From the IMG/VR virus record IMGVR_UViG_3300020472_000183, positions 1-22,832 of that record: a DNA stretch of 22,832 bases. One strand, 5' to 3'. The DNA comes from a virus. Numbering within the stretch: position 1 is the stretch's first letter; each line of letters opens with the position of its first letter. Below the pieces are notes generated by a model. That model saw only the letters and a program-made list of their open reading frames with translations, made no database searches and was not told the origin of the DNA. The position numbers were made by a program, and so were the translations under genes. Shown here piece after piece: positions 138-20,235 of the stretch.

Positions 138-773
138 ATGGCTAAAAAGATATACCCCGGTAACTGGGTCACAAACTTAAGTAGTTACCAAGGCCAGCCA
201 GTCGTGGCTTGCCCAGGTCGTGTTTATTACCACAAGGTTGGTTATGCATTAGTAACTTCTACAGGAGCTACTGAATTTGCAGTTACCATCCCTAGTCCTG
301 ATATGCGTGGCGACGACAAAGTTCGTGCCGACATCACAGGATTAACAATTCCATCAGGAGCAAACGTATACCACGTAGGTCTTCGTGTTCCTGATATGCG
401 TAAAGATCTTGGAGTTGGTACTGCCGCTTCTGGTCTAGTTGGTACTAACGGCGACACTATTGCAGTAAAAGATGCTGCTGCCTCAGCGGCTGCTACCATC
501 TCAACTACTGTTGTTTCCTCTCCAACTATTGCAGTTGCAAGTTTAACTATTGCACCAACATCTGGAAAGAAAGGAATCGTAACCGCAGCAGTTCTTGCAG
601 GAGCAGAGACTCTTAAGGTCTATGTTCGTAATGCAGCAGGTAATGGTACTGGAAGTGCTTTATCTTCTACACAAACTGGTGGTACACCAATCATCGTTGA
701 AGTTTCATACTTCATAGACGATGAGGTTGCTGGATTGGATGATACATACATCCCATTCATCACAGAGACCTAA
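138..773 (+). CDS. Probable virion structural protein (211 aa)
   Basis: A 211-residue protein rich in Ala, Thr, Val and Gly with alternating beta-strand-like segments, no signal peptide and no membrane segment. The N-terminus is MAKKIYPGNWVTNLSSYQG. The composition resembles small beta-rich virion proteins such as head-decoration or tail-tube subunits; I recognise no specific family. The strong Shine-Dalgarno at 122-129 and an intrinsic terminator just after the stop (799-827) fit a gene needed in many copies, as a major particle component would be. It is similar in composition, but not obviously in sequence, to the 178-residue protein at 3304-3840. The structural role is inferred from composition, expression signals and context. 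Confidence 0.7.
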   Translation: MAKKIYPGNWVTNLSSYQGQPVVACPGRVYYHKVGYALVTSTGATEFAVTIPSPDMRGDDKVRADITGLTIPSGANVYHVGLRVPDMRKDLGVGTAASGLVGTNGDTIAVKDAAASAAATISTTVVSSPTIAVASLTIAPTSGKKGIVTAAVLAGAETLKVYVRNAAGNGTGSALSSTQTGGTPIIVEVSYFIDDEVAGLDDTYIPFITET

Positions 774-798
774 ATTACTAGGTTTTCTCACTACAATA

Positions 799-827
799 AG
801 AGCATCTCTTACGGGGTGCTCTTTTTT
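799..827 (+). terminator. Intrinsic terminator after the first structural gene
   Basis: AGAGCATC (799-806) pairs with GGTGCTCT (815-822) with one G-T wobble across an 8-base loop, followed by a six-T run (822-827). The hairpin begins 25 bases after the stop at 773 and ends only 5 bases before the ATG of the next gene. Confidence 0.8.
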
Positions 828-832
828 AATTT

Positions 833-1261
833 ATGGCGTTATATCAAAATCAAAAAAACGGTCAGGTTGTCGAGTTCATTGGACATCACGACAAAGACTG
901 GGCAATGGTCAAGAATGCAGCAGGTGTAGTTCAATACGTCGCCTTGGAGGACTTAGTTTCATACGAAGCAAATAAAGGTCGAACAGGTCAGAAAGTTGAA
1001 CCCGTCATCATAGACGAGAAGGATGAAGATAAACTTCCTGAAGCCGTCATCCCTGCCGATACAAGACTGAATGTCAATGTTGCTACTGCTGAAGCATTAG
1101 CCAAGCAAGTTAAAGGTATTGGCTATGCCACTGCTAAGAAGATCATTGAATTGAGATTGTCTTTACCTGCAGAAAGGTTCTCGAAATTAGATCAACTTAA
1201 AAAGATCGCAAGAGTTGACTGGGAAGAGGTATTTAAAGAAGACCTTATCTACATTGCCTAG
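833..1261 (+). CDS. Helix-hairpin-helix protein (142 aa), probably virion-associated
   Basis: The N-terminal part (residues 1-48) is short-stranded and could be a small SH3-like barrel. An acidic linker follows (about 58-72). Residues 78-132 match a ComEA-like helix-hairpin-helix: the Asn-Val-Asn-Val-Ala-Thr-Ala lead, the hairpin GIG (95-97) followed by ATAKKI, then a second helix pair around FSKLDQLKKI. This fold usually binds DNA backbone without sequence specificity. In a virion cluster it might act in head completion, DNA ejection or packaging; that role is inference. The ATG at 833 has no Shine-Dalgarno and directly follows the terminator's T-run, so the message may be leaderless or come from read-through. 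Confidence 0.75.
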   Translation: MALYQNQKNGQVVEFIGHHDKDWAMVKNAAGVVQYVALEDLVSYEANKGRTGQKVEPVIIDEKDEDKLPEAVIPADTRLNVNVATAEALAKQVKGIGYATAKKIIELRLSLPAERFSKLDQLKKIARVDWEEVFKEDLIYIA

Positions 1262-1264
1262 AAT

Positions 1265-1282
1265 AAAGCGAAAGTCGCTTTT
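1265..1282 (+). terminator. Short hairpin between two genes, possible weak terminator
   Basis: AAAGCGA (1265-1271) and TCGCTTT (1275-1281) form a perfect 7-bp stem with a 3-base loop, followed by only a short T tract. It fills the 28-base gap between adjacent genes and may attenuate transcription or stabilise the 3' end. Confidence 0.4.
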
Positions 1283-1289
1283 ATAGAGA

Positions 1290-1775
1290 TTGGAGCTTAA
1301 CGACTACGACAAAAGCCGTACAAGGTTCCATCTTGGCTACAACACCGGAGCAAATTTGCCTGCCGGTGATATCGCTCGCTTAGAAGAAGCACTAGCTCGT
1401 GTTCCTGATAGTTATTTCTATGACAGGATCATTGAACATTTGAATCGTTGCGACAAGGCTTACAGATTATCTCAGGTATTTAAGTCTGAGACATCTCCAC
1501 AGCCAAATATGATTCAAAGAATCACAGGGGATACTGACAGGCAGATAATGCAGTCAGATCCTATTAAGGCTGATAAAACATATCGTGAAATCTATCTTCG
1601 TGAAGTCGATCGATTAGCTGAGACATTATATGTCGCTAATTACAGACGAGAGGAGGTAAGACGTTATGCATTTGATCGGTCTGGTGCTGAATTTATCATG
1701 GCGGTAAAAGGTCCAGCTGATACGGCGGTTGGAACAAGAGTTGCACAAGCCGTTGGATCACAAAACTGGAGGTAA
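1290..1775 (+). CDS. Conserved-looking phage protein (161 aa), TTG start
   Basis: No ATG is available: a stop lies in frame just upstream (1284-1286), and the first sensible codon is TTG at 1290, giving MELNDYDKSRTRFHLGYN. The protein is soluble, charged and largely helical. One segment (about 24-60) is rich in leucine and arginine around an RLEEALARVPDSYFYDRI stretch, and another near 100-130 contains YREIYLREVDRLAETLYV. It resembles short connector or neck-like proteins of cyanophage virion clusters as I recall them, but I cannot name a family. It is followed by a 6-base gap and a gene with a good Shine-Dalgarno (GGAGGTAA) that overlaps this gene's stop. Confidence 0.7.
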   Translation: MELNDYDKSRTRFHLGYNTGANLPAGDIARLEEALARVPDSYFYDRIIEHLNRCDKAYRLSQVFKSETSPQPNMIQRITGDTDRQIMQSDPIKADKTYREIYLREVDRLAETLYVANYRREEVRRYAFDRSGAEFIMAVKGPADTAVGTRVAQAVGSQNWR

Positions 1776-1781
1776 CTATTC

Positions 1782-2810
1782 ATGGGTAATAAAAATGTGA
1801 AGAGAAACATTAATCCAAATCCTTTTTGGCGGGCAGGCTTCTTGGGCCCTGATCAAACTAAACCTTTTGATTGGAATCAGAGAGGCTTGCAGAACGAGCA
1901 GGAGCCCAATCGGAATTTTGTAGACAATATTGCTAAGTATGGCCCTGGTGGAAATTTGACAGGGAGAGAAGAACTAGCACGGCAAAGACAGTTACTCAAA
2001 CTACAGAGACTTAAAGAAGAAGGCCATCCTTGGGCGATGAAGCCTGAAAACCAACAATATTACGATTCAGGTGTTGTCAATATCGAAGGTGCTAAAGCAA
2101 ATATAGGTAGCAGTTCATTTACTGGAGGTGGAGATCAATCTAGTGCACCAACAGTTAATCCTGGGGCTGACAGAGAAAGAAACCAGCAGTCGGACATGGC
2201 GGCAATGCTTCAGCAGTACGGAAAAGTTCCACTTGATCCTGCTGGTGGTGCAGTCATGGGCGCTGCTATAGGCTTAGGAGCTAGCGGTGGCAAGGCTTTA
2301 CCTACATTACTAGGTGCAGGTGCTGGGTATCTTTTAGCAAGAAGTAACAGCATTTTACTTCCCGGACAAAAACCTGAAGGAGAAAGTGAAGCATTTGATG
2401 CTAGTCAGGCTATAGATGGAACGGCTCCAGTTGAATCTCAAACAGAAGTAGTGTCACAAGAAAAGGCAGATATCTCAGGGATGTATCCAGGGGTTGATCA
2501 GCTAGGTGAAGGAGGAATGGCCTTTGCTCCCGGATTTACGAATGCAGCAGCCAACAGAAGCAATACGTTTGGACAGGATGTAACTACGTTATTAGCTCAA
2601 TCAGCAAAGACGACAGGAGATCAAGTGCAAGGTGGCAACATGCAACCACAAATTGGAACCGTTGCCGGAGTTGCCGGACTGGAGGTTCCTGCCCCTGGAG
2701 GACAACCTGGAAATGTTCCTAACCCAGCTGATGAATTGGTGGCATCATTCAGTAAAGGACGAGTACCTCAATACATATATCAAACTCTCGGCGGAGGATC
2801 TTTGGTATGA
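1782..2810 (+). CDS. Gly/Ala-rich putative internal virion protein (342 aa)
   Basis: The start is supported by GGAGGTAA about 8 bases before the ATG. The N-terminal third is polar, rich in N, Q, P and R, with a basic amphipathic helix at about 61-80. Residues 154-187 are a run of Gly and Ala with hydrophobic residues (GGAVMGAAIGLGASGG, then LPTLLGAGAGYLLA), which could insert in a membrane. The rest is low-complexity, acidic and Gln/Pro/Gly-rich. This arrangement suits an internal or ejected virion protein that touches a membrane during infection, but I recognise no family and the role is inferred. The stop overlaps the next ATG (ATGA at 2807-2810), indicating translational coupling. Confidence 0.65.
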   Translation: MGNKNVKRNINPNPFWRAGFLGPDQTKPFDWNQRGLQNEQEPNRNFVDNIAKYGPGGNLTGREELARQRQLLKLQRLKEEGHPWAMKPENQQYYDSGVVNIEGAKANIGSSSFTGGGDQSSAPTVNPGADRERNQQSDMAAMLQQYGKVPLDPAGGAVMGAAIGLGASGGKALPTLLGAGAGYLLARSNSILLPGQKPEGESEAFDASQAIDGTAPVESQTEVVSQEKADISGMYPGVDQLGEGGMAFAPGFTNAAANRSNTFGQDVTTLLAQSAKTTGDQVQGGNMQPQIGTVAGVAGLEVPAPGGQPGNVPNPADELVASFSKGRVPQYIYQTLGGGSLV

Positions 2811-3250
2811 CTAGATCTAGAAGACCCGAGCACATGAAATACAAAGAAGGTGCTAGGAGATCCTTCCGACCAAATGAGTGGTACGTCGACAAAAGGAGAG
2901 AACGAGAAGCTAATAATTTCTTGGCAGGTTCGAAAGGTGGAGTTCCTAACAATCCGGCGAATATAAGATCATTCGAGCCAATACCTGCGCCTATAGACCC
3001 TGCTAGATCAATGCAAGGTGATCAAGTCGTCAGAAGAAATCCATATGGTGACGGAGAGCAAATTATTGATGGTGAAAGAGCCTTATGGAGAAGGCCTAAT
3101 CAACGAGGTTCATCCTTTGATCCTCCTCCTGTTCCTGTCGAAAGAACTGGGAAAGTGAGACGACCAAATGATAAAAAAGCCAGAAAAGGAACGAGTACAT
3201 CGATTGGCCTTATGAATACTGGTCCTCTTAGAGATGTCTCACATTTTTAA
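2807..3250 (+). CDS. Basic, Arg/Pro-rich hypothetical protein (147 aa)
   Basis: The ATG overlaps the upstream stop (ATGA), and GGAGG at 2793-2797 is a plausible Shine-Dalgarno. The protein is strongly basic at both ends, with RSRRPEHMKYKEGARRSF near the start and KVRRPNDKKARKG near the end, and Pro-rich in between. It has no membrane segment or known domain. The composition suggests a disordered protein that may bind DNA or acidic partners inside the capsid; that is a guess. The gene is real with fair confidence because of the coupling and the absence of alternative frames. Confidence 0.6.
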   Translation: MTRSRRPEHMKYKEGARRSFRPNEWYVDKRREREANNFLAGSKGGVPNNPANIRSFEPIPAPIDPARSMQGDQVVRRNPYGDGEQIIDGERALWRRPNQRGSSFDPPPVPVERTGKVRRPNDKKARKGTSTSIGLMNTGPLRDVSHF

Positions 3251-3303
3251 TTTGAATTTTCAGTATTCAATTCTCAGTAAACTTTGTATAGATGGGTAAT
3301 TAA

Positions 3304-3840
3304 ATGGCAACGAGTAGTTCAAACAAAATGCCACTGTTGGTCGACAGGCCAATGCATTCTTTCGCGACGATTGGAGGAACTGCGGCATTAACAACAGCAA
3401 CAAATCTGAATACGCCTGGCACAGCCGGTTGTGTACTGCTTGTTGATTGTTCAGGAAACGACGGTGCTGTGGTAGATAGCTTATCTATCCTCGCCTTAGA
3501 AGCAAATACGACGGCAAGAGCTGTTCTAGCTTTCTTGAGTACAGCAACAACGGCTGCGAGTATAACGACTGCTAATACTGCATACGTAGCAGGAGCGACC
3601 ATTGGATCTACTGCAAAAGGTGACAGGACAAATGTTCCATTACCTGCTTTATCTGTTCCAGTACCGAATTTAGCGAGCCCAGCTGCAACAGTTAATTCAT
3701 ATCCCAACGAATTAGAGAAGAAGAATACAGGTTTATATATTCCTTCCGGTGCATTGCTTTATGTCGGAGTTGATCAGGCAATAGCAGCACCTAGTGCAAA
3801 TACCAGAGTTCATGTTTTTGCCCAAGGCGGATTCTTCTAA
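3304..3840 (+). CDS. Probable virion structural protein (178 aa)
   Basis: An Ala/Thr/Val-rich, beta-strand-like protein with no signal peptide or membrane segment, ending in HVFAQGGFF. It has the feel of a small head-decoration, tail-tube or fibre-base subunit and sits among other virion genes; the exact role is unknown. The ATG has no Shine-Dalgarno. A 53-base gap precedes it, containing a possible weak TATAGA element at 3287-3292 and a TTGAAT/ATTCAA hairpin at 3252-3270, too weak to annotate separately. Only three bases separate its stop from the next ATG. Confidence 0.65.
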   Translation: MATSSSNKMPLLVDRPMHSFATIGGTAALTTATNLNTPGTAGCVLLVDCSGNDGAVVDSLSILALEANTTARAVLAFLSTATTAASITTANTAYVAGATIGSTAKGDRTNVPLPALSVPVPNLASPAATVNSYPNELEKKNTGLYIPSGALLYVGVDQAIAAPSANTRVHVFAQGGFF

Positions 3841-8390: not shown

Positions 8391-11267
8391 ATGCCACAAT
8401 ACGGAAAACTAAAAATTGATGAATTTCTGTACAACAACTCAGGTACAGATGTCACTCTTGTTCTTAACAATATTGCTCTAAAGGCAAATCCTACATTCAC
8501 TGGAACGGTAACAGTTCCAACAGCAACCGCAGGAGATAATAGTACTAAAGCAGCATCAACAGCATTCGTTGTAGCTAGTTTTGCTCCAAAGGTATCACCC
8601 ACATTTAGTGGAACGGTAACAGTACCAACTGCTTCAGCCGACGACAACACTACCAAGGCTGCTTCCACTGCTTATGTTCAAACAGAACTAGGAGACTATT
8701 TAACAACAGCCACGGCTACGAGTACTTACGCACCAAAAGCAAATCCTGCTTTTACAGGATCAGCAACTGGAGTTAATCTCACTTTAAGTGGAGACCTCAC
8801 TGTTAATGGTACAACTACAACGATTAATACGACAACACTTCAAGTAGAAGATAAAAATATAGAAATAGGCAAAGTTTCTAGTCCATCAGATACGACCGCC
8901 GACGGTGGAGGTTGGACTTTACTTGGAGCCACGAACAAGACATTCAACTGGGTTAATGCTACTGATGCTTGGACTTCTAGTGAGCATATTCATCTAATAG
9001 ATAACAAGAAGTTATTTGTTGGAGGTGCATCAGGAACGACTGATGGGCTTGAGATTGTTCATAATGGTTCAAACAGTATTCTTAATGACTCAGGAACAGG
9101 AACTCTTCAACTACAACTAGGCGGTTCAACCAAGTTAGAAATACAGTCAGGTGGAATAAACGTAACTGGTGCAATTCAAGTTAACGGCTCTGCTTTAAGT
9201 ACTGCCCCTCAAATTACGGCTACTGCATCAGGTGCTATTACCGCTGGTAACGCTGTAATCGTTAATGCAAATGGAACTGTTAGTAAAGCGACATTAAACG
9301 TAACTGCTAATAATGAATCTCAAATTACTGCGACTTTATCTGGTACTCCCCGTAGTACCTCTAGTGAGATGACTGGCGCATGGGATGAGTTTATGTGGGG
9401 CTACGACACGCAATATAGTGTTCTTCTTTGTGGTACTAGCAGTGTAGGTGGTAGTAATGATTATAAATTTAGAATGGCTAGCTGGACTGGAAGTGGTGAT
9501 GGCACTTTCCCAGTATTAACTTCTCCTAAATTCACTGTCCCTAGTGGACAGAGACTTTGGGATATTGGCCCCATAGTCGAAGATCCTAATCAGAATAAAC
9601 ATATTATTTTTTATTCGACCAATAATGACTACAGCAATCCTTACTGCAAAGGTGCTGTTATCACTGTTACTAGTGCAACTGCTGCCTCAGTAGGTTCTGC
9701 TGTTAACTTCTCTGCTAGTGGAGATTATTTTTCTCCTTGGGGTTGCTTTGACAGCAACGTAGACAAATTTATTACTACTTATACGACTTCTTCAGGAGCC
9801 CTAAAAGTAAGAGCTTGTTACATTGATGGTACGTCAATTACTAATCATAGTGAAATAACTGTTCAAGATGGTACTGGTAGAACTTCAAGTGATAAAGCAA
9901 GACTTGTTTTTGATTCTACAAATAATAAAACTGTTTGTATTTACTCAGTAGGAGCCACCCTGAAAGCAAAAGTCATAACATGTGCTTCTAACGGAACTGT
10001 TACAGCGGGTAGCGAGGTAGCTATTACAAGTTCAGGTGACTTTCCTCACGCTGATTTCAGTACTAAAGACGGAAAGATAGCTGTTGTTTATAGGAAACCC
10101 AGTAATGGTTATCGTGTTATATGTGGAACGGTAAGTGGAACAAGTATATCTTTTGGCTCTGAATTTGATTTTGCAGGTCTTTCAACTAATGATATTAGTG
10201 TAAAAGTCAAATATTCTGCAGGATCTGAAAAGTTTATAGTCCTGTTCCGAGATAATAATACTAAATTACAAGGAGAAGTACTAAATTTATCAGGGACTAC
10301 ATTTAGTGAACATGCGGATATAATCAGTGATGAAGGAGCAGCTTGGGGTTTAGCAGGTGACCAAGCTATTCGTTATGGGGATAGAAACTCATTTACCTTT
10401 ATATATGATCCTACTAAAGGGAGGGTAGCTTATCTTTATTCAGATAATGGTAGTAATGGCCCATACTATACTCACTCATTTGTAGATGGGGTTTCTGCGA
10501 CAAATTTAACGACAGAGAATTATATAGGTGTAGCCGCTGCTTCTGCTTCGGATACCGCTACAGCTACTATTGATGTTTCAGGTGCTACTAACGCCAATCA
10601 ATCTTCGTTAACACCTGGCCAAAAGTATTATGTTCAAGGTAACGGTTCATTAGGTTTAACAAAAGGTACTCCATCAGTATTTGCAGGCACTGCTGTAGCT
10701 GCTACTAAGTTAATAGTTAATGATCAGCAACCTATTCCCGTTTCAGTATGGGAAGTAGTAGCAACTCACGATTTATCAGATGGTGCTCAAACGATTAACA
10801 ATACTGGTTGGTCTGATTCATACCAAATGTACAAGTTAGTTATAACAGGACTGAGTGGCCTTACTTCACAAGTCTATTTGCGTTATTATTTTGATGCCTC
10901 AGCATCTTCTACTGGTACGGGAACTCTTGCAACCTCAGACCACTATGATTACAAAAGATTTGCGTGGAGTGGGCAAATGGGCAGTGCCACTGGGCAGTAT
11001 TACCATAAACTTTATAATAATAGTTCATCTGCTAACTGGTATTCTGTTGAATTAAATTTCCCAATGCATAGTGCAGGTTCAACATCTACACCTAAAGGTT
11101 GTTATGGAACTATGTACTTTGGAGGATTTTCTGTATTTAACGAAGTAGGTGGTTACTCTCACTCTGCTACAAATTCTCATTTTTTAAAAGGAGTTCAAGT
11201 TTATTTTCCTGGTGGTGTAACCAATATGGTAGGTAGATTAACCTTCCTTAGACAGAAATATGCTTAA
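8391..11267 (+). CDS. Tail fibre / receptor-binding protein with propeller-like insertion (958 aa)
   Basis: Domains in order: a short N-terminal cap (1-30); repeated fibre motifs NPTFTGTVTVPT-x-DN-TKAASTAFV at about 33-60, 70-96 and 118-135; a shaft segment (130-270); the first half of a small beta domain (272-309); a large insertion (about 325-700) with six or seven repeats of a beta-propeller-like pattern (D-x-x-x-NK then four strands, for example near 403, 457, 512, 561 and 612); the second half of the small domain (708-777, with SLTPGQKYYVQ); and a C-terminal jelly-roll-like region (785-958). This is typical of a host-recognition fibre. About 83 residues (118-200) are nearly identical to part of the 398-residue fibre downstream. 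Confidence 0.85.
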   Translation: MPQYGKLKIDEFLYNNSGTDVTLVLNNIALKANPTFTGTVTVPTATAGDNSTKAASTAFVVASFAPKVSPTFSGTVTVPTASADDNTTKAASTAYVQTELGDYLTTATATSTYAPKANPAFTGSATGVNLTLSGDLTVNGTTTTINTTTLQVEDKNIEIGKVSSPSDTTADGGGWTLLGATNKTFNWVNATDAWTSSEHIHLIDNKKLFVGGASGTTDGLEIVHNGSNSILNDSGTGTLQLQLGGSTKLEIQSGGINVTGAIQVNGSALSTAPQITATASGAITAGNAVIVNANGTVSKATLNVTANNESQITATLSGTPRSTSSEMTGAWDEFMWGYDTQYSVLLCGTSSVGGSNDYKFRMASWTGSGDGTFPVLTSPKFTVPSGQRLWDIGPIVEDPNQNKHIIFYSTNNDYSNPYCKGAVITVTSATAASVGSAVNFSASGDYFSPWGCFDSNVDKFITTYTTSSGALKVRACYIDGTSITNHSEITVQDGTGRTSSDKARLVFDSTNNKTVCIYSVGATLKAKVITCASNGTVTAGSEVAITSSGDFPHADFSTKDGKIAVVYRKPSNGYRVICGTVSGTSISFGSEFDFAGLSTNDISVKVKYSAGSEKFIVLFRDNNTKLQGEVLNLSGTTFSEHADIISDEGAAWGLAGDQAIRYGDRNSFTFIYDPTKGRVAYLYSDNGSNGPYYTHSFVDGVSATNLTTENYIGVAAASASDTATATIDVSGATNANQSSLTPGQKYYVQGNGSLGLTKGTPSVFAGTAVAATKLIVNDQQPIPVSVWEVVATHDLSDGAQTINNTGWSDSYQMYKLVITGLSGLTSQVYLRYYFDASASSTGTGTLATSDHYDYKRFAWSGQMGSATGQYYHKLYNNSSSANWYSVELNFPMHSAGSTSTPKGCYGTMYFGGFSVFNEVGGYSHSATNSHFLKGVQVYFPGGVTNMVGRLTFLRQKYA

Positions 11268-11565: not shown

Positions 11566-12762
11566 ATGGCTTACGGTGACCTAAAGGTAAGGAATTTAAT
11601 ATGGAATACAGGCTCTGGAGATAACACAGTTGTCCTGAGTACATTAGCGACTACCAGTTCGCCGACTTTCACTGGAACGGTAACAGTACCAACTCCAACA
11701 GCAGGAGATAATAGTACTAAAGCAGCATCTACAGCCTTTGTAGTAGCATCCTTTGCTCCTAAAGCAAGTCCAGCATTCACAGGAACTGCAACAGGGGTGA
11801 ATCTCACACTGAGCGGGGATTTGACTGTTAATGGAACAACGACAACTATTAATACGACGACACTTCAGGTAGAAGATAAAAATATAGAGATAGGTAAAGT
11901 ATCAAGTCCTAGTGATACAACTGCTGATGGAGGAGGTTGGACTTTAAAAGGTGCAACCGATAAGACATTTAATTGGGTTAACTCAACTGATGCTTGGACT
12001 TCTTCTGAACATATTGCGTTAGCGAGTGGTAAATCTTTCCAGGGAAATCTGACTGGAAACGTCACAGGTAATGCTTCTGGAAGTGCGGCAACGGTTACGG
12101 GTGCTGCTCAAGCTGCAATCACTTCTGTTGGAACGCTTACTGGTTTAACTGTTAGTGGTAATACAACAATTAGCGGAAATTATCTTGATATTCAAGACAC
12201 TAAAAAATTACGTTTAGGTACTGATGGTGATTGCCAGTTCTATCATAGTGGAGGTGCAAATTTTATAGAAACAGGTAGTCAAATAATTCATATCCAAAGT
12301 GATTCTTCTATTCGATTACAGAAGAATACAGGTAATGAAAATATGTTGGTTGCTAATGCAGGCGGCTCAGTAGATTTATATCACAACAACTCAAAGAAAA
12401 TAGAAACCACAGCGACTGGCGTTACGGTAACTGGAACGGTATCAGATTCAATAGGTGATGTAAGAAAACTTGGATATACAAGTACAAGTTCAGCCTATAC
12501 ATTATTACAATCGGATAATGGTAAGTTTATAGAAATGGGAGGCGGAGGAGTAACAGCTCCTTCTGGTATGGCCGCAGGAACGATGATAACTATTGTAAAT
12601 GTTGCGTCTGCAGATCAGACTATTACTCAAGGTTCTAACTTTACTTTGACTAATGCGGCTGATGCTTCTACAGGTAATAGAACCCTAGCTTCAAAAGGAA
12701 TGGCAACTATTTTATTTCTTGGGTCTGCACAGGGCTCTATCACAGGTGCAGGGTTGTCATAA
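11566..12762 (+). CDS. Second tail fibre protein (398 aa)
   Basis: The N-terminal cap (MAYGDLKVRNLIWN) and the motif SPTFTGTVTVPTPTAGDNS mirror the larger fibre at 8391-11267. Residues 68-150 match residues 118-200 of that protein with about five differences. After about residue 155 it diverges into shaft repeats (GNLTGNVTGNASGSAATVTG) and a segment with DTKKLRLGTDGDCQFYHSGG, common in marine phage fibres. The C-terminal end (about 310-398) is a small beta-rich tip ending in GSAQGSITGAGLS. The shared base with a different tip suggests both proteins plug into the same attachment point on the particle. No Shine-Dalgarno is visible. Confidence 0.8.
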   Translation: MAYGDLKVRNLIWNTGSGDNTVVLSTLATTSSPTFTGTVTVPTPTAGDNSTKAASTAFVVASFAPKASPAFTGTATGVNLTLSGDLTVNGTTTTINTTTLQVEDKNIEIGKVSSPSDTTADGGGWTLKGATDKTFNWVNSTDAWTSSEHIALASGKSFQGNLTGNVTGNASGSAATVTGAAQAAITSVGTLTGLTVSGNTTISGNYLDIQDTKKLRLGTDGDCQFYHSGGANFIETGSQIIHIQSDSSIRLQKNTGNENMLVANAGGSVDLYHNNSKKIETTATGVTVTGTVSDSIGDVRKLGYTSTSSAYTLLQSDNGKFIEMGGGGVTAPSGMAAGTMITIVNVASADQTITQGSNFTLTNAADASTGNRTLASKGMATILFLGSAQGSITGAGLS

Positions 12763-17271: not shown

Positions 17272-17412
17272 ATTATCGAAAAACAATTACGCAAATTAAT
17301 TAAACTTAGTCTGAAGGCTCAAGCTTGTACATCCAGAAAAGAGGCCAAGAAATTGTTAAAGAAAGAACTAAAAACTCAAAAGAAAATCCAATCAAAACAA
17401 TTAACTAAATGA
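17272..17412 (+). CDS. Lys-rich 46-aa protein, non-standard start
   Basis: An open frame running from 17272 to TGA at 17410-17412 encodes a clearly protein-like basic helix, containing KQLRKLIKLSLKAQACTSRK and KEAKKLLKKELKTQKK. No ATG, GTG or TTG lies between the upstream in-frame stop and this sequence. The likely initiator is ATT at 17272 (or ATC at 17275), three bases after the preceding gene's stop. Its TGA overlaps the next ATG (ATGA at 17409-17412), the same coupling seen elsewhere in the window, which supports it being real. It could alternatively be a frameshifted extension of the upstream protein. The function is unknown; it may bind nucleic acid or membrane. Confidence 0.45.
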   Translation: MIEKQLRKLIKLSLKAQACTSRKEAKKLLKKELKTQKKIQSKQLTK

Positions 17413-17576
17413 ACTTTTACAGCGATCCAGAGGCTTTCCAATTAGCCATATTGTTCCCGTTTATTCCTTTGATCTGCGTGGCAGTAGTAACATTTATCCT
17501 CGGCTACGACACCAGAGAAGATGATGACGACGATGATGATCGAGGCACTCTTCAGCCTGCTTGGTATCCAACTTGA
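17409..17576 (+). CDS. Small single-pass membrane protein with Asp-rich tail (55 aa)
   Basis: ATG at 17409 overlaps the preceding stop (ATGA). The protein starts MNFYSDPEAFQ, has a membrane segment at about 12-32 (LAILFPFIPLICVAVVTFIL), then a run of seven Asp (38-44) and the ending GTLQPAWYPT. The short helix, acidic patch and Pro/Trp-rich tail look like a small phage membrane or lysis protein. I have a weak memory of similar short proteins in cyanophages but cannot name a family. The gene is followed by the 384-base attP region. Confidence 0.6.
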   Translation: MNFYSDPEAFQLAILFPFIPLICVAVVTFILGYDTREDDDDDDDRGTLQPAWYPT

Positions 17577-17695
17577 AATAAGTTAAACTTCGGACTATGC
17601 ATCCGATGAATTGTTACAGTCTCAGTTTGGCCCACTTTCGCGGCCCAGTCGTTTTTCGTGGCGAGTGGTGGACTGGGTTCTTGCCCTGCAACCAT

Positions 17696-17744
17696 AGGGC
17701 TCATAACCCGAAGGTCGGAAGTTCAAATCTTCCCCCCGCCACCA
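17696..17744 (+). other. attP core: 3' half of initiator tRNA-fMet
   Basis: The sequence holds a tRNA anticodon arm with the initiator-specific three G-C pairs (GGG CTCATAA CCC, anticodon CAT at 17702-17704), a variable loop AGGTC, a perfect T arm (GGAAG TTCAAAT CTTCC), the acceptor 3' strand CCCCGCC, discriminator A and CCA at 17742-17744. The 5' half does not fold properly: a forced acceptor (from about 17667) mismatches and the D loop lacks the usual GG. A 3' tRNA half just upstream of an integrase is the classic signature of attP (or one end of a prophage). The 49-base identity to tRNA-fMet is by recall. Confidence 0.8.
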
Positions 17745-17751
17745 ATTATTA

Positions 17752-17777
17752 AGTCCAGTTAGCTACTGGGCTTTTTT
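17752..17777 (+). terminator. Terminator directly after the tRNA half
   Basis: AGTCCAGT (17752-17759) pairs with ACTGGGCT (17765-17772) with one G-T wobble around a 5-base loop, followed by six T's. It starts only 8 bases after the tRNA CCA. After integration it would sit downstream of the rebuilt host tRNA and upstream of the integrase. Confidence 0.8.
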
Positions 17778-17960
17778 AGTGCTATAAAGGGATCTGAAGG
17801 AATATTTTATGTAAATGGATCAAAGCCTTCATGAGTTCAGATCGTTCTTATTGGGACTTTTTCGGCCCACTTTTTGCAAGAAACTGGGCCGTCTGCCCAC
17901 TAATTGCCCAGATTTTGGCCCAGTCCGTAGGGTTCGTTTTGTAAAACTGGGCCGCGTGAT

Positions 17961-19298
17961 ATGAATTTACCAATCAAAAAGTATATTGCTTTTTTAGAGG
18001 AATGCGATTATCGCTGGAACATGCTTACTCGTGGTGACAGTAAATATATTTATGTGAGGGATAGAGATGATCGAAACACAAGAATTTCACTCAAACCAAG
18101 AAGGATAGATAGCGATCAAGATTGTGAATGGGTCTGCAACAAAATCAAAGTTATTGATCAAGGCGTTTGGAGTGATGATGATATTCAAGAGGAAGAACTT
18201 AATATTTGGCAAAAAGACGAAGCAGCGATTAAAGGATTTTTACAAAAGAGAAATAAAGGATCTACGAATAAAAATTATTTTTCTTTATTAAAACAATTAA
18301 AAGAAAAACAAATCAAACAATCTTATAAAGCAATTAACGAATGGTTAAAAGAAAAACAATGTGGAACAAAACCTTTCCAGACCCGATTGGAATTTATTAG
18401 ACAACTTCAAAAGTTCTATGGAAATCCTGCTTGGTTCACGGATGAACAGTATCGAGCAATTCGAGATCTTCATGCAGAACAACGTAAAGAATTGACTAGG
18501 AATTTAGATAAGCAAGATTTGAGACAAGTTCGAGGAATCGTTTCAAGAGAAGAAGCAGAAATTTATTTAGATAAGTACTTCAAAGAGTTTCCATGGCAGT
18601 GCTGGGCTATTGCAATGATGATGTGTTACGGCCTTAGAAATCATGAACTGTGGTACATCAAAAAGCTGGAAAATCTTTTTATTGAGGTACCGAGGCGACT
18701 TACTAAGTCAAATGTAGATCGAATAGTCTGGCCTGCATTTGCTGAGTGGGATGAGAGATATGGATTGTTTAAAAATTTTGACGAGTATCAGTTTTATTTA
18801 CGCTGGAAAAGAAAACCACGTATAAAAAGCATTTCAAATCCACTCACTCGAACTTATTCGATTGATGACGAGGATATTTATTTTGATGGGATAGGAGATA
18901 ACAACGACGAGCTAGGGGAATATTTAACTCGCAACACTTTAGGAATAAAGCATAACGGCATTACGAGAGGGGTATTAAAAGGAAGATTTGGCAAAACTGG
19001 ACCTACTGCTTACGGAAAGAAAGGGAGAGCAGAACGCTCAATGCCACCATTGCTAGTTAAATCTCCAGTCAAAAGGTCAAGGAAGAAAATAGAGGTTCGA
19101 CCATATGACCTTCGACATACATGGGCAGTCTTTATGCATACTGATCCAGCGTTTAAAAGATTAAAGACAGTCGAAGAATGCGCTGAAGCGATGGGACATG
19201 GCTTAGCTGTTCACAAGCAAGAATATCTGCTTTGGCTAAATAAAGAAGATGAGAAAAAGGCGATGATCAGAAACCATCAACACCCTTACGTCGCGTAG
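17961..19298 (+). CDS. int: Tyrosine recombinase / phage integrase (445 aa)
   Basis: The C-terminal catalytic domain shows the family residues: box I Arg226 in CYGLRNHELW; box II YDLRHTWAVF (382-391), with Arg385 and Tyr replacing the usual leading His; His413 in AEAMGHG; and nucleophile Tyr422 in HKQEYLLWL. The N-terminal part (1-180) is probably arm-binding and core-binding: a basic segment to 50, helices at about 85-130 and 140-180. At 445 residues it is longer than many phage integrases because of an insertion of about 90 residues between the boxes (about 270-365). It would recombine the adjacent tRNA-fMet attP with the host gene. The ATG has no Shine-Dalgarno and lies 7 bases after a GGCCCA-type inverted motif, hinting at autoregulation. 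Confidence 0.9.
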   Translation: MNLPIKKYIAFLEECDYRWNMLTRGDSKYIYVRDRDDRNTRISLKPRRIDSDQDCEWVCNKIKVIDQGVWSDDDIQEEELNIWQKDEAAIKGFLQKRNKGSTNKNYFSLLKQLKEKQIKQSYKAINEWLKEKQCGTKPFQTRLEFIRQLQKFYGNPAWFTDEQYRAIRDLHAEQRKELTRNLDKQDLRQVRGIVSREEAEIYLDKYFKEFPWQCWAIAMMMCYGLRNHELWYIKKLENLFIEVPRRLTKSNVDRIVWPAFAEWDERYGLFKNFDEYQFYLRWKRKPRIKSISNPLTRTYSIDDEDIYFDGIGDNNDELGEYLTRNTLGIKHNGITRGVLKGRFGKTGPTAYGKKGRAERSMPPLLVKSPVKRSRKKIEVRPYDLRHTWAVFMHTDPAFKRLKTVEECAEAMGHGLAVHKQEYLLWLNKEDEKKAMIRNHQHPYVA

Positions 19299-19335
19299 TC
19301 AAACAAATGAGTATATTTACCCTAATTTCACCTAT

Positions 19336-19351
19336 ACACCATAGATGGTGT
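19336..19351. promoter_or_regulatory. Perfect palindrome, candidate operator
   Basis: ACACCAT-AG-ATGGTGT is a 7+2+7 perfect inverted repeat in the 102-base gap between the integrase and the next ORF. No T-run follows it directly, so an operator for a dimeric regulator is likelier than a terminator. The binding protein is unknown; the minus-strand HTH gene is a candidate. Confidence 0.45.
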
Positions 19352-19400
19352 TGAAAATTCTTTTATTGTCACACTTTGACGCTATTCTATTCAGAACGTT

Positions 19401-19834: not shown

Positions 19835-20002
19835 TCATGCAGCTCCATCTTTCTCCTCTGGATCAACTATTTCGTCGGGGAATTCCATAGCAAATTCCAT
19901 GTATTGGATGTCGTCTAATTGGTGAAGCGGAATACCAGACTTCGAGAATTGAATCTTGCGCTTTTTATCTGGCTTGTGATCCTCGAAGTTGGAGCTGGTC
20001 AT
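19835..20002 (-). CDS. Acidic 55-aa protein, coupled to the HTH gene
   Basis: On the minus strand, ATG (20002-20000) overlaps the TGA of the HTH gene (ATGA), and the frame runs 55 codons to TGA (19837-19835). The protein starts MTSSNFEDHKPDKKRKIQFS with a basic patch (12-16). It then has an amphipathic, acidic C-terminal half (IPLHQLDDIQYMEFAMEFPD). The overlapping start is good evidence for a real coupled gene. It could be an accessory partner of the HTH protein; the function is unknown. Confidence 0.6.
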   Translation of the reverse strand: MTSSNFEDHKPDKKRKIQFSKSGIPLHQLDDIQYMEFAMEFPDEIVDPEEKDGAA

Positions 20003-20235
20003 TTTGCCGCCGCTTGCTTTCTAGCTAAGCGCCTTTGTAATGATCCACTCGATTGACGAACTAAACGCTCAACCTCTGATAATTTCCAGATCTTTTGAGA
20101 ATCATCATTTAAAGGGTCTTTCGTGATGTAATGAGTTCCCTTGGATGCAATTGGATAAAACCGCCTTTCTAGAGTTTTTGCGGAGATTCCAAAGTGTTTG
20201 CATACTTGGGTTTTACTTATCCAGCGTTCTGCCAT
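19999..20235 (-). CDS. Small HTH DNA-binding protein, excisionase-like (78 aa)
   Basis: Residues 5-26 (WISKTQVCKHFGISAKTLER) are a classic helix-turn-helix with conserved W, hydrophobic core and S-x-x-TL, followed by RRFYPIA and a wing-like YITKD-x-KIWKLSEVERLV. The tail (65-78) is basic. The size and MerR-like/Xis-like layout suit an excisionase or a small regulator of the integration module. The gene is on the minus strand, opposite to every virion gene here, and shares a divergent intergenic region with the holin-like genes. Excisionase versus repressor cannot be decided from sequence alone. Confidence 0.7.
   Translation of the reverse strand: MAERWISKTQVCKHFGISAKTLERRFYPIASKGTHYITKDPLNDDSQKIWKLSEVERLVRQSSGSLQRRLARKQAAAK

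Follow-up and report, generated by a model that had tools for sequence, protein, structure and literature searches.

Whether marine Prochlorococcus harbors prophages is an old open question. The closest described system is that of the siphovirus P-SS2, for which a 53-bp putative attP including 36 bp of tRNA-Met was proposed, with tRNA-Met and ansA as the insertion site; the same work (Sullivan et al. 2009, PMC2784084) also describes phage-like islands that Synechococcus RS9917 carries at tRNA-Met sites. T7-like cyanophages such as P-SSP7 and S-TIP37 likewise combine a tRNA-half attP with an integrase of their own, and for them integration was shown by experiment, while stable lysogeny was not found (PMC8776855). 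In Prochlorococcus itself, tycheposons are tRNA-bordered elements with a tyrosine recombinase, and a second-hand account lists tRNA-Met among the seven tRNA genes named for them (PMC10872708).

The viral DNA analyzed here (22,832 nt, hereafter called the window) shares features with all of these. As in P-SS2, the 3' half of a tRNA-Met is followed by a terminator-like hairpin and then by an integrase gene, which in P-SS2 begins about 210 nt downstream; unlike the window phage, P-SS2 is a siphovirus, and the half is its sole DNA similarity to window positions 17300-19400. The two integrases are homologous over the length of the protein by profile comparison (E 1.3e-28, 26% identity). The T7-like cyanophages differ from the window in using tRNA-Leu and in belonging to another phage family (PMC8776855). 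Given the tRNA-Met match in the P-SS2 attP and the homologous integrase, neither the target nor the layout is new. New are the phage lineage, a junction in a single-cell genome, the pattern of arm-type repeats, and an integrase module common to unrelated phages and host islands. Our literature search found nothing that combined initiator tRNA, integrase, attP, phage and cyanobacteria and, within its incomplete coverage, no mention of AG-424-E20, 'Prochlorococcus prophage' or 'prophage in Prochlorococcus'.

Judging from the sequence, we put at roughly 0.87 the probability that the half is a working attachment-site core, which the downstream integrase recombines with the Prochlorococcus tRNA-fMet gene beside ansA. 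This defines the insertion site precisely and adds a phage lineage that has an integrase and a probable repressor, along with one candidate single-cell junction, so that the frequency of lysogens could be counted from reads spanning tRNA-fMet.

The attachment core and its host

The core, GGGCTCATAACCCGAAGGTCGGAAGTTCAAATCTTCCCCCCGCCACCA, occupies positions 17697-17744 of the window (48 nt, + strand) and is defined by its sequence, by its exact match to host genomes, and by the point at which similarity to Prochlorococcus AG-424-E20 begins; base 17696, which the preliminary description had counted in, lies outside the run. It reads as the 3' part of an initiator tRNA-Met, consisting of the anticodon arm GGG-CTCATAA-CCC with its three initiator-type G-C pairs, the variable loop, a T arm with all five pairs intact (GGAAG/CTTCC), the acceptor 3' strand, an A and CCA, in line with the first description. 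Directly 3' of it, a terminator-like hairpin with a T run (17751-17777, + strand; assigned by eye, without a terminator-scan score) resembles the hairpins behind host tRNA-fMet genes, again by eye. The integrase ORF starts at 17961, and thus at the distance of 216 nt past 17744 given before. The window shows two marks of a tRNA-directed phage attachment site: a sequence identical to the end of a host tRNA gene on the 3' side but unrelated to it on the 5' side, and an integrase gene adjacent to it.

The left flank carries a small acidic phage ORF of 55 aa (17409-17576, + strand, by eye), and DNA similar to this region also stands left of the core in the viral contigs L004, L047, L044 and L045, as judged by eye. 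Between the ORF and the core lies an anticodon-arm-like hairpin, TCGGA-CTATGCA-TCCGA (17590-17606, + strand, by eye). The viral contig L005 has a second anticodon-arm-like copy upstream of its core as well (9534-9557, TCGGG-TCAATAA-TCCGA-AGGTCG), relative to which the window copy is more decayed. Such copies are perhaps remnants of an older attachment site or of a second tRNA copy.

The use of half-tRNAs for naming hosts is an already published method (PMC3861242). An exact 43-nt stretch of the half was searched over a collection of 84,980 species genomes and was found at 36 places, 23 in records titled Prochlorococcus and 13 in other bacteria (Desulfobulbaceae, other Deltaproteobacteria, and Myxococcales or Myxococcaceae). 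Of the 23 Prochlorococcus records, 22 contain the full 48 nt including CCA, the remaining one (L012) ending differently, whereas none of the 13 others does. ARAGORN finds one complete tRNA-Met in each of the 23 Prochlorococcus loci. Within the Cyanobiaceae, 250 of 400 genomes contain the stretch when any letters are allowed at two T-stem pairs, six of them with two copies by a count from our own table. The proposed alignment to bacterial tRNA-fMet genes thus names the genus Prochlorococcus. It cannot name a host strain, because the half is common to many Prochlorococcus records. The T stem occurs in three versions among the phage lineages, GGAAG/CTTCC, GCAAG/CTTGC and GGGAG/CTCCC, and hosts with the latter two exist.

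A divergent tyrosine recombinase

The ORF behind the core (17961-19298, + strand) encodes a divergent tyrosine recombinase of 445 aa, identified by its catalytic residues. R226, K249, L384-R385-H386, H413 and Y422 are invariant in all 11 proteins aligned. Pfam and PHROGs return no integrase family for the window protein or for the integrases of AG-424-E20, viral contig L044 and P-SS2, and of two host-element proteins scanned, one (L060) gives weak integrase matches. Searching the PDB sequences with a profile of the integrase yielded no match, as did tblastn against phages with the window integrase and with a 472-aa protein of the window. In Foldseek, with a weak model (pLDDT 64), lambda Int is the top match (E 3e-4, TM 0.22-0.28), heading a list led by lambda Int and Xer/Cre in which the leading matches have TM scores of 0.2-0.4 and a single one passes E 0.001; the VIA list for the same model names Tn1549, P2, Xer and Cre at Z about 10. 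Further downstream, a small HTH-like protein on the opposite strand (19999-20235, - strand) might, as a guess, be an excisionase, its HTH match (E 0.003) being below the curated cut-off.

The window integrase has matches in 141 of 400 Cyanobiaceae genomes (E 1e-5). AG-424-E20 alone exceeds 60% identity, followed by five genomes at 33-34% in the best segment, the others among the matches listed being weaker. In these five, the integrase gene lies behind a 77-nt initiator-type tRNA-Met, which is preceded by an asparaginase gene in the two host elements examined in this respect (G406 and G222). A displaced second half was found in three of the five genomes, at a distance of 14.7 kb on the same contig in G406 and on other contigs in G289 and G222, each with substitutions or insertions relative to the tRNA of its own genome. 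On the left of the displaced half in G222, 29 nucleotides are identical to the left flank of the unoccupied site in the viral contig L254, and the partial integrase of L254 matches that of G222 at 89% identity. Should the two contigs of G222 be opposite ends of a single element, G222 and L254 would provide attL, attR and attP for one relative. L254 also carries siphophage tail genes. Next to its displaced half, G222 has a recombinase-like ORF and others, none of them phage-like by eye; G222 (contigs L113 and L114) belongs to the genus of AG-424-E20.

More distant members of the family stand behind other tRNA genes, namely elongator-type tRNA-Met (L064 and L067-L070), tRNA-Thr (L065 and L071) and tRNA-Lys (L072), which indicates that the wider family has switched targets. 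The P-SS2 integrase groups in the tree with those beside elongator tRNA-Met, on a long branch and with an unsure place. A single integrase family, missed by Pfam and PHROGs in the phage members scanned, is thus common to unrelated phages and islands at one gene.

Phage lineage and lifestyle

Four ORFs of the window (138-3840) match genes beside the capsid gene of the Synechococcus phage S-EIV1 (KJ410740), in the same order and at 26-49%. The capsid gene lies outside the window; that of a relative (G002) encodes a protein matching the S-EIV1 capsid at 69% over residues 1-352. By this gene homology and colinearity, the phage belongs to the S-EIV1 lineage. A tycheposon, in contrast, is a cargo element without structural genes of a tailed phage, from which the window is set apart by its homology to the capsid-side block of S-EIV1. 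S-EIV1 itself differs from the window in that no integrase is annotated, and at E 1e-5 neither the window integrase nor the repressor-like ORF of a relative has a match in it. As a separate observation, two long genes with repeated N-terminal segments (8391-11267 and 11566-12762) look like tail-fibre genes by eye, and there is a 61-nt match to cyanophage S-RIM32.

A second relative, G407 (IMGVR_UViG_2716884763_000001, 56.2 kb), matches the annotated terminase of S-EIV1 at 52% and the long S-EIV1 gene between terminase and capsid at 44%; the G407 counterparts of the two have no Pfam family. Both G002 and G407 encode a VapE-like helicase and a repressor-like HTH protein; the two HTH proteins are 50% identical, and their presence in close relatives makes lysogeny plausible. 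G407 (L145-L147 and L142) ends on gene borders exactly, at one end on the integrase ATG, and that end (L142) shows no attachment site. Its IMG id, 2716884763, looks to us like that of a cell genome rather than a metagenome, and G407 may be a prophage cut out of a cell genome by a predictor.

It is a tentative proposition, somewhat short of an even bet, that the S-EIV1-like lineage is truly temperate in Prochlorococcus, with integrase, attP and repressor kept and the prophage residing in uncultured cells. The S-EIV1-like capsid gene was found in none of 400 Cyanobiaceae genomes and the 472-aa window protein in none of six host genomes, both searches having been run without a positive control genome; the VapE-like helicase is present at 30-35% in three of the six. 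An integrase close to that of the window occurs in one of the 400 family genomes and in one of 41 genomes of the genus of AG-424-E20, where at E 1e-15 two genomes match, AG-424-E20 and the more distant G222. Together with the missing capsid gene, this rarity would also suit a lytic phage that inserts at tRNA-fMet only sometimes and transiently, as T7-like cyanophages integrate at tRNA-Leu without stable lysogens (PMC8776855). We regard such transient integration as a live possibility of less than even odds: the relatives carry a repressor-like HTH gene, of a kind which the same source reports as not found in T7-like cyanophages (PMC8776855), and host elements of which both ends are present use integrases of this family.

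A candidate junction in a single-cell genome

In the single cell Prochlorococcus AG-424-E20, a contig of 7,634 bp (L031) carries ansA, encoding L-asparaginase II (Pfam Asparaginase_II), then a complete tRNA-fMet gene, and then the gene of a 432-aa integrase that is 60-64% identical to that of the window. Window positions 17697-17822 and this contig are 94% identical in nucleotide sequence; the similarity begins exactly at the first base of the half and resumes inside the integrase gene at 68-72%. To the left of the junction lies host DNA colinear with a relative (G153, 86%), and this colinearity stops 38 nt beyond the tRNA, within the hairpin. The contig thus offers a candidate junction with reconstituted tRNA for a relative at 60-64%, and it has one odd join: about 50 nt after the integrase stop it continues into genes which are sited elsewhere in G153, the first of them a host gene shorter than in G153 (L031, 1-1815). 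Behind the integrase, the contig therefore holds a rearrangement or an amplification chimera, as a result of which one end of the insertion is visible in AG-424-E20, with one junction on the contig and one tRNA half in the genome. With a close integrase relative at exactly tRNA-fMet, viruses with this integrase probably insert at the initiator tRNA gene of Prochlorococcus.

It is conceivable, and to us only a little less than evenly balanced, that what AG-424-E20 carries at this locus is a cargo island, or an integrase captured by itself, and no phage insertion. The integrase and the right arm alone are phage-like, while the genes next to them match none of the phage loci compared and are located elsewhere in a relative, and host islands employ the same integrase family at tRNA-fMet. 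However, the AG-424-E20 integrase pairs in the tree with that of phage contig L047 (94/95), within a clade of six (100/100) whose other five members are all from phages, the island integrases standing apart, and the nucleotide similarity to the phage spans the core into the right arm.

An origin of the join as an assembly artefact, in which the DNA of an infected cell was connected through the 48-nt shared sequence, appears unlikely to us. While the other odd join on the contig and the presence of just one tRNA half in the genome would be in line with it, related elements in host genomes have a half at either end, and repeats of 48 nt are usually resolved by long k-mers in assembly. The attachment site at the initiator tRNA gene proposed in the preliminary description is supported by the exact host match, the adjoining integrase, the single-cell junction, and the displaced halves in related host elements.

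Repeats around the core and a proposed course of integration

The core is flanked by copies of GGCCCA, putative arm-type sites of the integrase identified from repeat counts: two in the left arm (17629-17647, + strand; copies at 17629 and 17642) and four, as GGCCCA or its complement, in the right arm (17864-17953, + strand; 17864, 17885, 17917 and 17948). These six copies in the att region compare with three in the other 22.3 kb of the window. The repeat is specific to the lineage, being GGCCCA in the window and L004, GGCCCC in L047, TGTCCA in L092 and TGTCCG in L045, at offsets from the core that are nearly constant, about -55 in four of the five contigs and +168, +181 to +188, +199, +221 and +247 to +251, with some places empty in some contigs and no left-arm copy of its 6-mer in L047. 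The lineage motifs were picked after looking, which inflates their P values, so that a blind count of the commonest 6-mer is the fairer test. None of 500 shuffles reaches the observed number in any of the five contigs, and the other segments of the same contig reaching it are 0 of 127, 0 of 118, 3 of 76 (L047), 0 of 110 and 0 of 74. Such a pattern, in which the motif changes as a set but keeps its positions, would be expected of arm-type sites that evolve along with their integrase.

In the integration that we propose, the tyrosine recombinase encoded 216 nt downstream would bind the repeats on both sides of the core and carry out recombination between the core and the Prochlorococcus initiator tRNA-Met gene that neighbors ansA. 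The shared tRNA stretch always includes the whole anticodon loop in 14 phage sites compared, starting at tRNA nucleotides 25-33, which makes strand exchange within this loop most likely. The host 5' half would thereby be joined to the 3' half, terminator and integrase of the phage, so that the essential tRNA is remade and the 3' half of the host itself is displaced to the far end of the insertion.

Viral records with the same layout

The 14 sites comprise 13 IMG/VR records, including the window, and P-SS2. In each, the half is followed on the same strand by an open frame 74-279 nt downstream; the integrases of these records are related by tblastn or profile, and a further record (G003, L003) has the same site. 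Across 15 phage halves, the T stem retains five of five pairs despite sequence differences, and CCA is encoded in 11, being absent from L215, L217, L242 and P-SS2. The 5' flank of the half is dissimilar between phage lineages.

ARAGORN detects no tRNA anywhere in the window. The Rfam tRNA model scores 31.5 bits over 17667-17741, above its own cut-off, the gathering score of 29; for comparison, two complete host genes reach 65-66 bits, scores of 22-25 are obtained for the P-SS2 half and for two displaced halves from hosts, and those of the viral contigs L047, L045 and L044 remain without a match up to E 10. These comparison scores and the blank ARAGORN result indicate that the 5' side of the window half pairs slightly by chance, yet is no tRNA gene, in agreement with the first reading of the sequence. 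A functional phage tRNA at this position was considered and rejected for the same reasons. A tRNA gene carried by the phage, now decaying and without a part in integration, is a very improbable reading of the half: the Rfam score, above the gathering score over the whole length, speaks for it, but all 15 halves keep their T stem next to 5' flanks that are unrelated from one lineage to another, and the half-only pattern with an open frame close behind it in 14 of 14 contradicts such decay.

It is not rare for IMG/VR records to carry an initiator tRNA gene or half of one. A survey of 123 loci found at least 110 such places, by a rough rule 67 complete genes and 43 halves, these counts being lower bounds and one of the two underlying searches having asked for complete genes. 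At least 16 of the surveyed places have an integrase-like ORF within 2.5 kb, and at least 10 of these are halves, some with an integrase of the same family. Integration at the single essential initiator tRNA gene had at first been considered notable in itself; this argument is weakened because the inserted half remakes the gene, because a site of the same kind had been proposed for P-SS2, and because other initiator tRNA halves lie beside integrase-like ORFs in IMG/VR. One viral contig, L046, carries a complete tRNA-Met at its very end (48-122).
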